DNA of 24,088 nucleotides from a virus: IMG/VR virus record IMGVR_UViG_3300043570_002193, positions 1 through 24,088 of that record; one strand, written 5' to 3'. Under the pieces are notes generated by a model. It was not told where the DNA came from. It ran no database searches and worked only from the letters and a program-made list of their open reading frames with translations. Within the stretch, counting starts at the first letter, position 1, and every line of letters starts with the position of its first letter. Positions 6,931-11,913 of this stretch are shown in pieces. The translations under genes were made by a program, and so were the position numbers.

Positions 6931-7621
6931 TTTGTGGCTTTAAATGTGAATAGGCAGAGAATTTAGAATCTCCAGAAACCGTTGCTGTTGAGTTAAAGCT
7001 ATTTCCTTCCCAAGTTCTTACAGCAGCTTTCCAATCTTTCATTGCGTTCTTTCCTACTTTCCAACCATTCGATTGATAGTGATCCATCCACTTCTGAGGA
7101 TTGACCGAGTTTTTTCTTTCTTGGCAATAATCTTGAACTTCTTGGAGAGTTGGACGAACAAAACCTTTAGGTTTAAACTCCGTCTCTGTTTCTTTCTTTA
7201 TTTCTTTTTCTGTTTCTGTTTCTGTTTCTGTATGGCACTCCTCAAGCATTGCTTGTTGTATGCTTGGAGCATTACTTGAAGCATTATCCTTTGACCACCT
7301 TTCTTTAGCGGCTTTAGAGGCTTTTTCTCTGCTTTTTTCCCTGATTTTCTTCTGACTTTTGATAATTTCTAGGCCAACTCTAAGCACCTCATCTTTTACT
7401 GAAGAAAGAGCAAGTTGTTCTTCTTCTCCAAAAGCTCCGGCTTTACGAAATAGTTTAGTTGGTTCTTCAGGAATTTGACCATCCTCGGAAAGATAAACGC
7501 AAAGCAAAGCGATGAAGGCACCTTTCTCAAGAAAAGAATAGCCAGCAAGAAGCCCTTGGTATTGGTTTATGTAGAATGGAAAGTGTATTAGGGGATCTTT
7601 ATTTGTTGCAGTTGGTTTCAT
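6920..7621 (-). CDS. DUF1376 replication protein (probable initiator/helicase loader)
   Basis: A 233-residue protein. Residues 8-75 (LIHFPFYINQYQGLLAGYSF, followed by LEKGAFIALLCVYLSEDGQIP) match DUF1376, a winged-helix-like domain at the N-terminus of phage replication proteins. A basic linker with KSREKASKAAKERW follows, then a short repeat TETETETEKEIKKETETE, and a C-terminal module (VQDYCQERKNSVNPQKWMDH, then GWKVGKNAMKDWKAAVRTWE) seen in phage O-like proteins and thought to contact the helicase. The order matches the common phage arrangement of initiator followed directly by DnaB. The Thr-Glu repeat is encoded by a hexamer-like DNA repeat (7197-7235) that may vary in length. Confidence 0.8.
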   Translation of the reverse strand: MKPTATNKDPLIHFPFYINQYQGLLAGYSFLEKGAFIALLCVYLSEDGQIPEEPTKLFRKAGAFGEEEQLALSSVKDEVLRVGLEIIKSQKKIREKSREKASKAAKERWSKDNASSNAPSIQQAMLEECHTETETETEKEIKKETETEFKPKGFVRPTLQEVQDYCQERKNSVNPQKWMDHYQSNGWKVGKNAMKDWKAAVRTWEGNSFNSTATVSGDSKFSAYSHLKPQNAK

Positions 7622-7802: not shown

Positions 7803-8113
7803 TTTCCCTCTTCAATTGTTTTGCGGGCAGTTACTCTAGCCTCTTCAATAGTTTTTGTTCTTCTGGAATCTGCAATGTTTCTTAGACCTATTCGCATAGT
7901 GCTGAATTTGGAGAGATATTTATCAACATACTCAGAAAAATGATTCTCACTAATTGTGATTTTCAATTGTAGCTCATAGATAACTAAAAGAGCTTCTTTT
8001 AAATGCATTGGAGAAATAATTGAACCTTCTTCAAGTTTATGCTTAAGAAAGGCAATTCTTGAGTTTATAAGATCAGATTTAAGGGTTGTGATTGTTTTTT
8101 GCTCTTCGGTCAT
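7793..8113 (-). CDS. Hypothetical 106-residue protein, first gene after the structured RNA region
   Basis: Encodes MTEEQKTITTLKSDLINSRI and ends RKTIEEGKWS. Long helices, including LKHKLEEGSI and MHLKEALLVIYELQLKI, dominate; the C-terminal third is basic. No clear ribosome binding site is visible (AAATCAAAGTAAAAAT precedes the ATG), unlike most genes here. It is the first gene downstream of the 915-base non-coding stretch and heads a sub-operon leading to the helicase. Not recognised. Confidence 0.6.
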   Translation of the reverse strand: MTEEQKTITTLKSDLINSRIAFLKHKLEEGSIISPMHLKEALLVIYELQLKITISENHFSEYVDKYLSKFSTMRIGLRNIADSRRTKTIEEARVTARKTIEEGKWS

Positions 8114-8410
8114 ATTTTTACTTTGATTTGATTAACTTTACTTTGTAACACTCTCAACCCCTATTCCTAAGAATCAAGAATTATTTGCCTTTTTACAGAA
8201 GGCTAACTGTCATGCTGGCTTGCAATAAACCAGTTTGCCGAGCTGACATCGCGTATTGCTACGATTGCAAATCACTCATGCCTTCATCTCTACCTAGGCT
8301 AGGTTTTTGGTCGCGCTGCAAACTTTGGATCCGTTCACTCATGCTACTTCACCCTTGCTAGCAAGGTTTTTCACACTTCGCCTAACTTCATAGGCCGCGC
8401 GATAAAAAAA

Positions 8411-8484
8411 TGGTTCCGCCCCGCCAGATTGATTACTGACCTCTCCACCTATGCGATGGCGTCCTAGTTATAGACGAGGGGCGA
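8411..8484 (-). ncRNA. tRNA-like cloverleaf ending in CCA
   Basis: On the minus strand: acceptor TCGCCCC/GGGGCGG (7 bp, 8478-8484 with 8416-8422), linker TC, D-like arm GTCT/GGAC with a 7-base loop, one base, anticodon-like arm CCAT/GTGG with loop CGCATAG, a 4-base variable region, T-like arm GTCAG/CTGGC with an 8-base loop, then AACCA. Lengths sum to 69 plus the tail, close to a tRNA. Each arm has a U-G pair that would be an A-C mismatch on the plus strand. It lacks the T-loop TTCGA, the D-loop GG and the U before the anticodon, so it is probably not a working elongator tRNA. The CAT in the loop is where an anticodon would be. Confidence 0.55.
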
Positions 8485-8550
8485 TATAAATGCATTTCTG
8501 CGCTTCTCTATGCACGTTTTTAGACATGTGTAGAAATACGAAGAAAAACC

Positions 8551-8623
8551 TCCCGCTCGGGATGTTTCACTAATTTTAACCCTTAAAATCAGCCAAAAAA
8601 TAACAAATCATCCCGCTCGGGAT
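8551..8623. repeat. Two identical self-complementary hairpins 60 bases apart
   Basis: TCCCGCTCGGGAT occurs at 8551-8563 and again at 8611-8623. Each copy can fold alone (TCCC/GGGA) and each can also pair with the other. They lie inside the structured non-coding region. On the minus strand the lower-coordinate copy is followed by GGTTTTTC, so it could also act as a weak terminator. Confidence 0.75.
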
Positions 8624-8940
8624 CTTAATTTGATATAATAAAGCTGGTGGGCGTTGCTCGAGACTACCCACCCGCCGACTAACCCGTTGCAACAGGCTTC
8701 GTCCCAGCTCCATCATCCACAAGGGAGAGAGGAATCGCTGGTTTTATTCTAAAAGCCCCCGCTACGCAGTGACCTAAGCTATTTCAGCTCTACAAGTTCC
8801 AGTGAATATCTCCAAAATAATAAAGTGAGGGAGTCGCTGGAACCAGTAGAATTGAATTTCAACTTAGCTGATTATCCCTCTTTTTTTAATTCAAGCTTAA
8901 AAAATTCGATGCACCGAAGGATAATCAACAAAATGGAAAT

Positions 8941-8996
8941 GTCAGCGCAGCAGGGATTCGAACCGCTGGCCCCCGAAGGGTGAGGACTACGCTGAC
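8941..8996 (-). ncRNA. 56-base tRNA-like fold without a D arm
   Basis: On the minus strand a perfect 7-bp stem GTCAGCG/CGCTGAC (8990-8996 with 8941-8947) encloses TA, a 6-bp hairpin GTCCTC/GGGGGC with a 7-base loop ACCCTTC, and directly after it a T-like arm CAGC-GG/CC-(CT)-GCTG with the canonical T-loop TTCGAAT. Elements abut without spare bases. The GGTTCGAATCC block is the standard tRNA T-arm motif. There is no D arm and no encoded CCA. Alternatives are a tRNA 3-prime half kept as a phage attachment site, or an arm of the large RNA. Confidence 0.5.
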
Positions 8997-9028
8997 GTGC
9001 GGGAATGAAAGAACCGCTCCTCAATTAT

Positions 9029-9244
9029 TTAGTCAAACTTTGGAGCTGTCAAGTATTTTGTAGGATCTTCAAACTCATTTGACCAAGTGCTTTCAATCGA
9101 AGCATGAAAAGGGTTTTTGTCAATTGCTTCTTCAACATAATAGTTAATTATCTTTCTTTCTTCCTTATTCTCTTCATAATCAATCCACCAGATAAAAAGC
9201 CCTAGACAGATCCAAACCAATACCATCACAATTTTGTCTTTCAT
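9029..9244 (-). CDS. Small membrane-anchored hypothetical protein
   Basis: A 71-residue protein with one N-terminal membrane segment (IVMVLVWICLGLFIWWI, residues 5-21) flanked by KDK on the N side and an acidic DYEENKEERK on the C side, so the C-terminal 45 residues may be cytoplasmic or periplasmic. No lipobox or cleavage site is obvious. It is separated from the next gene upstream by no spacer (start at 9244, previous stop at 9245). It is unlikely to be a holin by position; role unknown. Confidence 0.65.
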   Translation of the reverse strand: MKDKIVMVLVWICLGLFIWWIDYEENKEERKIINYYVEEAIDKNPFHASIESTWSNEFEDPTKYLTAPKFD

Positions 9245-10794: not shown

Positions 10795-11328
10795 TTAAAT
10801 TTTGGATTGATCCCAGATTTCTAGGGGCAGGTATTTTCTGCAAATGTCGGCTGTTAATTTTTGATTTTGCTTGCGCGCAGCAGCATAAGCAGCAGCAGCA
10901 GCAGCATCAGCAGCATAAGCAGCAGCATAAGCAGCAGCAGCAGCAGCATAAGCAGCATAAGCAGCAGCAGCAGCAGCATCAGCAGCATAAGCAGCAGCAG
11001 CAGCAGCATCAGCAGCAGCAGCATCAGCAGCATAAGCAGCATCTTTTAATTCGTTTTCACTCGCCCTATTCTCACCAAATGCGATAGCAATATCAACGGC
11101 CTTAATACTTCTTTCATCTCTCATCAAGTGCCTCACTGTATTAGCGCAATGAGCTTTTGCCAAAGTTAGCTGACGAAAAGATTTTGAATTAGTTCTTTTA
11201 AAGAGCCATAAAATCCAGTCACCACGCTCACAAGTATTTAGAAACTGCTCAAGGGTTAAATCTTTTGCAAAGCCAAAGCCGCTTCTGCAAGCATCATGTT
11301 TTTCTAAAAATGTTTTCAGTGTTTTCAT
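10795..11328 (-). CDS. Alanine-repeat protein, similar to phage 'putative immunity protein' repeats
   Basis: A 177-residue protein. Residues 1-95 are an ordinary helical domain (LTLEQFLNTCERGDWILWLF, RQLTLAKAHCANTVRHLMRD, KAVDIAIAFGENRASENELK). Residues 97-151 are almost pure alanine with Tyr or Asp at intervals (units such as AAYAADAAAAA). The tail (KLTADICRKYLPLEIWD) is helical. The layout (GDW-LWL, a helix ending in A-FGEN, an Ala/Tyr/Asp repeat, then a tail on IC-KYL) resembles Imm-5-like 'putative immunity' proteins found in phages and bacteria; this is from memory. The repeat would form a long alanine-rich helix. Biological role unknown. Confidence 0.7.
   Translation of the reverse strand: MKTLKTFLEKHDACRSGFGFAKDLTLEQFLNTCERGDWILWLFKRTNSKSFRQLTLAKAHCANTVRHLMRDERSIKAVDIAIAFGENRASENELKDAAYAADAAAADAAAAAAYAADAAAAAAYAAYAAAAAAYAAAYAADAAAAAAYAAARKQNQKLTADICRKYLPLEIWDQSKI
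10877..11042. repeat. Trinucleotide (GCA/TGC) satellite inside the alanine-repeat gene
   Basis: About 165 bases made of GCA triplets broken at intervals by TAA or TCA (as read on plus), giving higher-order units of roughly 15-24 bases such as AGCAGCATAAGCAGCAGC. On the minus strand these read Ala with Tyr and Asp. The repeat is also open in other frames on both strands, which produces spurious poly-Gln, poly-Ser and poly-Leu frames. Such arrays change length by slippage. Confidence 0.9.
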
Positions 11329-11478: not shown

Positions 11479-11913
11479 TTATTTCTCCAATAATTCAGGG
11501 TTTTCAAAACAGTTTCCTACAATTTCAAGGCCGCCCCACCGTTTCCAAAGATTAAGCCTTTCGCTTAGGTTTTGGTGGTTAGCAATATAAAAGCAGCCTC
11601 TCTCAAAAAAGACTTCGTGGCAATTTTCTTTGTGAAAGCCATAAGTCCCGCAAATATTTCCCCCACCTTCTGCTCTTTTGTCTGATTTGAAGCTAAGAAT
11701 ATCGCCTTCGTAAATTTCATTTCCGTTTTTGTCTTTTAAACCAGTGAATTGTTGAATTATGAAATCTCTATTTTTTTCGTCAGGATAACCATTATTTATT
11801 ATAAAGATCTGTCCTTCCTCGTTAAATCCAGCCATAAAATCTGAATCCTCTCTAAGGTTTGCAAAAGATCCCCAGTTTTTATGCCAAGCCCTAAACTTTA
11901 TTTCTCTAGTCAT
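11479..11913 (-). CDS. YopX-family protein
   Basis: A 144-residue protein with the YopX signature: N-terminal MTREIKFRAWHKNW and the central FTGLKDKNGNEIYEGDILSF (about residues 56-75), followed by a beta-rich C-terminal half (YIANHQNLSERL, GGLEIVGNCFENPELL). YopX proteins are frequent in phages and prophages; their fold is known but the function is not. The start overlaps the end of the upstream gene by eight bases, so the two are coupled near the head of the early operon. Confidence 0.9.
   Translation of the reverse strand: MTREIKFRAWHKNWGSFANLREDSDFMAGFNEEGQIFIINNGYPDEKNRDFIIQQFTGLKDKNGNEIYEGDILSFKSDKRAEGGGNICGTYGFHKENCHEVFFERGCFYIANHQNLSERLNLWKRWGGLEIVGNCFENPELLEK

Follow-up and report, generated by a model that had tools for sequence, protein, structure and literature searches.

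The window analysed here is a viral DNA stretch of 24,088 nucleotides, and its positions 8114-9028 form an island of non-coding sequence. A preliminary description of this DNA had claimed a 915-base gap without a supported gene within the early operon, and both points hold. The flanking ORFs abut the gap at 9029 and 8113, which confirms its coordinates, and the only ORFs inside it are short, unsupported frames of 48-58 aa. The genes on both sides are minus-strand genes of the replication region and encode DnaB-like helicase, primosomal, single-strand-binding and Sak-like annealing proteins, and the head genes (terminase, portal and major head protein) lie to the right of the island on the plus strand. 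The minus strand also encodes, at 10795-11328, a protein with a long low-complexity Ala stretch plus Asp/Tyr; another phage of the set, L124, encodes Gly/Asn/Asp/His-rich repeat proteins. A predicted promoter lies at the 5′ edge of the island, partly within the end of ORF 9029-9244, and the structured RNA begins just there. This promoter-like site, predicted from its consensus match, is identical in the nearest relative, L128, and nearly so in L109. No intrinsic terminator was found at the 3′ end of the island. The elements are listed in the 5′ to 3′ direction of the minus strand.

9024..9052, minus strand: predicted sigma-70-like promoter TTGACA-N17-AATAAT, 11 of 12 consensus positions, consensus match only
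8999..9017, minus strand: 5′ stem-loop GCGGTTCTTTCATTCCCGC near the predicted transcript start, from the fold; conserved in L128 and L109
8941..8996, minus strand: tRNA-like element 1, from the fold; stem GTCAGCG/CGCTGAC, T-loop GGTTCGAATCC
8868..8928, minus strand: long hairpin H1; z −4.0 for 8862-8931; unchanged in L128
8781..8861, minus strand: long hairpin H2; z −3.0 for 8764-8863; nearly unchanged in L128
8753..8775, minus strand: tip hairpin C1 (ACTGCGTAGCGGGGG); core recurs in about ten other loci
8634..8718, minus strand: branched module with GGTGGGC/GCCCACC pairing; z only −0.9 for the fold of 8630-8738; conserved in L128
8551..8623, minus strand: palindrome ATCCCGAGCGGGA(T) in two copies, 8623-8610 and 8563-8551; z −4.6 for the pair (8540-8630)
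8488..8547, minus strand: hairpin H3 ending in GCGCAGAAATGC; z −4.1 for 8488-8550; homologues in about ten loci
8417..8483, minus strand: tRNA-like element 2, a cloverleaf; z −3.1 for 8410-8487; block at 97% in L088, also in L003 and L128
8311..8402, minus strand: structured body closed by CGCGC/GCGCG; z only −0.8 (8305-8414); L006 block at 95%
8280..8304, minus strand: start pseudoknot [ACCU]A[GCCU][AGGU]AGAGAUGA[AGGC]; covariation in 17 sequences and a test without pairing filter on relatives
8210..8279, minus strand: cassette body of 70 nt; 98% block including the start pseudoknot in L100/L096; z −0.2 alone (8205-8285)
8186..8209, minus strand: end pseudoknot PK-A [CAG]UUA[GCCUU][CUG]UAAA[AAGGC]; motif exact in 27 viral stretches
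8152..8177, minus strand: hairpin B, CTTGATTC...GGGTTGAG; z −4.8 for 8146-8182; motif in 14 viral stretches

The minus strand of 8114-9028 folds at −304.3 kcal/mol, compared with −260.7 ± 6.5 for shuffled sequences, which gives a z value of −6.8 from only 20 dinucleotide shuffles. The plus strand folds more weakly (z −2.1), and a plus-strand RNA was rejected because all of the strand evidence is also opposed to it. Hairpin H1, the palindrome pair, hairpin H3, the cloverleaf and hairpin B each beat their shuffled versions as single elements. The branched module and the two bodies do not do so when taken alone (z −0.2 to −0.9). The folding program is pseudoknot-free, so the pseudoknots receive no score in any of these values.

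Relatives were gathered first via the neighbouring primosomal protein, which led to loci with short island matches; the DnaB protein, used as a query for relatives, gave no matches. The two short motifs of the 3′ part, PK-A and hairpin B, lie in their 27 and 14 viral stretches nearly always in non-coding islands of ~0.3-2 kb. Several of these related islands adjoin tRNA genes, so the nearness to tRNAs raised in the preliminary description is seen in this set. On the much larger phage contig L094 (174.8 kb), an end pseudoknot at ~456 on the minus strand also lies between tRNA-Met and tRNA-Gly in a tRNA array.

Compared with these relatives, the window island is a mosaic. Counted from its 5′ end, with island position 1 at window 9028, block 542-617 matches L088 at 97%, 641-750 matches L006 at 95.5%, 724-819 matches L100 at 98% and 819-883 matches L104 at 97%. 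The blocks are thus 95-98% identical to different uncultured phages, and the block ends coincide with the module edges. L128 has the 5′ modules in common with the window and then carries insertions of about 430, 35 and 200 nt, the 35-nt one at the palindrome region 8551..8623, and modules inside these insertions recur at other loci. It is without the 3′ cassette bearing PK-A and gains other modules, and L109 has only short blocks in common with the window island. Modules therefore appear, vanish and recombine independently across the relatives, and the modular organization of the island, taken alone, is very probable. Between the window and L128 the island part is 98.8% identical and the next ORF 78.7%; purifying selection on the island, read from this difference, was dropped, since region 1-1525 is also 98.8% identical and recent recombination explains the identity of the island equally well.

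No Rfam family matches the window at the gathering score, and GOLLD (RF01998 group), ROOL and OLE are absent up to E = 10. With permissive filters over 8000-9150 nothing credible appeared, and sub-threshold microRNA and leader matches were judged to be chance. ARAGORN, also with introns allowed, found neither a tRNA nor a tmRNA in the window, Rfam gave no tmRNA match there, and Rfam on 13 related loci returned tRNAs only. Since no Rfam family matches, the island is not GOLLD, ROOL, OLE or tmRNA, and the membership in the first three that had been considered earlier falls away. Searches of cultured phages gave no match to the window island or to the L100 island, and ordinary tRNA genes were the sole matches of the L121 island in cultured phages and plasmids. 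Such islands are not described in the literature searched, which lay mostly outside subscription journals.

The island shares with GOLLD and ROOL the character of a large structured non-coding phage RNA locus, and those loci are likewise often near tRNA islands and rich in pseudoknots (PMC12286853); ROOL assembles into a homo-octameric cage (PMC12286853). A single large ornate RNA, similar in kind to these, that folds or assembles as a whole and exchanges its outer domains would account for a whole-island z value more extreme than that of any single module, and its size and tRNA nearness would resemble those of ROOL and GOLLD (PMC12286853). Against this, the modules are exchanged singly and no conserved core was found, as the loss and gain of cassettes in L128 and the short blocks of L109 illustrate, and homologues give no support to the long-range pairing in the fold of the single sequence. 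We consider one such molecule highly improbable. The earlier proposal of a conserved large folded RNA therefore stands in part: a separate structured phage RNA locus outside the known classes remains, built from local helices that recur in relatives, and the single GOLLD-/ROOL-like molecule with its long-range helices gives way to exchanged modules.

Two elements of the island are tRNA-like. The first (8941-8996) combines an acceptor-like stem with a canonical T-loop, and is without an anticodon arm and CCA. Its stem is kept in L109 by a two-sided change, although the three sequences are too few for statistics, and its mascRNA-like Rfam score of 19.4 bits is weak and not significant. The second (8417-8483) has a D-like arm, a 5-nt loop at the anticodon place and a non-canonical 8-nt T-loop, and is also without CCA. 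Judged by a 7-nt anticodon loop, a canonical T-loop and recognition by ARAGORN or RF00005, nothing in the window was recognized as a tRNA. The relatives extend this theme. First, L085, L103, L108, L122, L124 and L125 share a constant tRNA-like frame, GGCTAGTGTTG...CAACACTAGCT, with a D-arm and a T-arm (consensus GGCTAGTGTTG...CAA(C/G)(A/G)CTAGCT). The inserts in this frame replace the anticodon arm and, one pair excepted, are alike barely above the level of shuffled sequence. Second, L121, L127 and L104 carry tRNA-like genes with an encoded CCA and inserts of tens to ~100 nt at the place of the anticodon arm, for example at 11529-11640 on the minus strand of L127. The island and its relatives thus resemble tmRNA and phage tRNA arrays in the tRNA-like acceptor stem and T-arm, the pseudoknots and the tRNA genes beside several related islands, whereas the elements of the window have no normal anticodon arm or CCA and are not recognized as tmRNA. 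The layout of PK-A presumably recalls pseudoknot 1 of tmRNA, which we treat as a lead only.

The unit that recurs in these islands opens with a start pseudoknot, continues with a variable body of 67-437 nt and closes with an end pseudoknot. This order is found at 23 of 35 end pseudoknots, where the distance back to the start pseudoknot is 67-437 nt. Twelve families account for the 23 bodies, and members of one of them occur with three different start pseudoknots. Elsewhere the start pseudoknot reads [ACUC]G[GCAC][GGGU]AAAGAUGA[GUGC] or [AGUC]G[GCAC][GGCU]AAAGAUUA[GUGC], so that both crossing stems change together. Among 17 distinct sequences two-sided changes occur in six of eight pairs, and the covariation score was reached by none of 500 shuffles and not by slid versions of the motif. 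Some of the 17 sequences had come through a pairing filter; because part of the covariation set was gathered in this way, a test without the filter was run on every AAAGA[AT]NA loop located no more than 450 nt upstream of an end pseudoknot. Both stems form in 22 of 31 loops upstream of PK-A versus 8 of 1741 elsewhere, a large contrast, although the count treats related sequences as independent and its p value is too small. The start element is thus an H-type pseudoknot, with two crossing stems kept by compensatory changes. The evidence for PK-A is modest, with two pairs showing two-sided change. One body family of the relatives has a conserved structure in which 15 of 43 pairs are changed on both sides. 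The covariation that the preliminary description had proposed as a check is accordingly present in the start pseudoknot and in this one cassette body.

Among bacterial and archaeal genomes, the end-pseudoknot motif occurs only on contigs of two Rickettsiales MAGs, and a search of 344 Rickettsiales genomes returned the same two. Phage genes for replication and recombination are present on one of these contigs, and a fragment of the same MAG has a portal gene 44% identical to that of the window. The motif contigs, the phage genes and the portal match make Rickettsiales the likely hosts of these phages, with mis-binned phage contigs as the other possible source of the signal. Cultured phages of Rickettsiales are, to our knowledge, very scarce, and the islands would give a rare view into such phages.

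A Rickettsiales host also bears on whether the island is a tolerant stretch of non-coding DNA in which selfish palindromic mobile elements, similar to the Rickettsia palindromic elements, have accumulated. The core of hairpin C1 caps different flanking stems in different phages, at about ten other loci, and close relatives differ by insertions at hairpin tips, as such elements would produce. In L119 (7316-7329), C1 stands in place of a hairpin loop within a different cassette's body, as would result from insertion at the hairpin tip. The fixed start-body-end order would be unexpected for selfish elements, as would sites that all lie on the sense strand, covarying crossing pairs in pseudoknots and cloverleaf folds, and we regard this origin as distinctly improbable.

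The strand bias of the motif sites is complete. All but one of the 47 sites are outside ORFs, and in 44 of 44 cases the next ORF downstream has the same orientation. Eleven of the 44 lie 23-28 nt before a start codon, and other sites are separated from the next ORF by as much as 1.1 kb. This cluster before start codons points to an additional cis role of some end pseudoknots for the gene that follows. In L005 (5010-5095), L006 (4330-4415) and L104 (~7090-7180), the loop of a hairpin (GTAGTCCCCTG) is able to base-pair with the AGGGGA that precedes the start codon, and in L002 (5935-6000) the same pair of loop and AGGGGA position is kept with other letters. From its sequence, this pairing is possibly a pseudoknot that covers the Shine-Dalgarno site ahead of the next ORF. 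The whole island might be a long 5′ or intercistronic leader in which pseudoknots control the translation or stability of the next gene; the pseudoknot 3′ strand over the Shine-Dalgarno-like AGGGGA, read directly in L005, L006 and L104, and the missing 3′ terminator of the island are both consistent with this. A leader has no use for tRNA-like elements, tRNAs and exchanged bodies of 12 families, other motif sites are as much as 1.1 kb away from the next ORF, and the downstream genes are not the same from phage to phage. We regard such a cis-acting leader as unlikely.

Several related islands also contain protein genes of counter-defence type. Acb2/Tad1 hairpin proteins come from a family of phage proteins that sponge up defence signals (PMC12043709). 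They were found in 6 of 42 records, with five of seven hits within ~0.5 kb of PK-A and none in the window. In L121 (2812-3550), L086, L088, L120 and L095, the genes of these proteins (PF24729) lie between the RNA modules or next to them.

We tentatively favour, at somewhat less than even confidence, an early minus-strand array of modular RNA cassettes that are exchanged by recombination and whose bodies are decoys or inhibitors acting in trans on host factors. Transcription would be early and would start at the predicted promoter (9052-9024). Each cassette would consist of a body that varies between phages, enclosed by small H-type pseudoknots or by a tRNA-like frame, and the shared blocks point to exchange between phages by recombination at the module edges. 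RNAs would be cut from the early transcript, with the pseudoknots and tRNA-like frames perhaps marking their ends and shielding them, and the bodies subject to exchange would then act on host factors, plausibly those of host defence. Action in trans is favoured because of the early location, the exchangeable bodies, the tRNA mimicry and the nearby counter-defence genes. Considered by itself, the decoy mechanism is rather doubtful; the absence of Acb2 from the window island, its presence in so few records and the 11 sites near start codons count against it. More doubtful still is the broader idea of a phage lineage with a form of RNA display, in which constant frames present interchangeable bodies that are shuffled among phages and act as RNA counter-defence; it would be the RNA counterpart of anti-defence gene islands.

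A precedent for a phage decoy RNA is pseudo-ToxI, which mimics the antitoxin RNA of a type III toxin-antitoxin system and proves that such RNA mimicry can serve anti-defence (PMC3475682). Like ToxI and pseudo-ToxI, the island presents small H-type pseudoknots in a phage (PMC3475682). Unlike them, it has unlike bodies between its pseudoknots, no Rfam match and no toxin gene in view, and the ToxI-type tandem array of ~36-nt pseudoknot repeats is absent, with one weak 14-nt repeat only. ToxN was found in none of 105 genomes of the order, in a search that was silent in controls as well. The phage anti-defence gene islands (Acb2 and others) are similar in being mosaics of exchanged early-region cassettes, and some related islands contain Acb2/Tad1 within them; the cassettes here are RNA and not protein genes, and their anti-defence action is putative. 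As far as sequence comparison tells, RNA cassettes whose ends stay constant while their bodies are exchanged, and which recombine at module borders, match no Rfam family, and we found no paper on them. If the bodies are decoys, phages would evolve anti-defence RNAs by cassette exchange in the same manner as genes, and the constant pseudoknots would help to locate such RNAs in metagenomes. The island of L121 additionally codes for a crAss001_48-related protein (PF21825) among its RNA modules.
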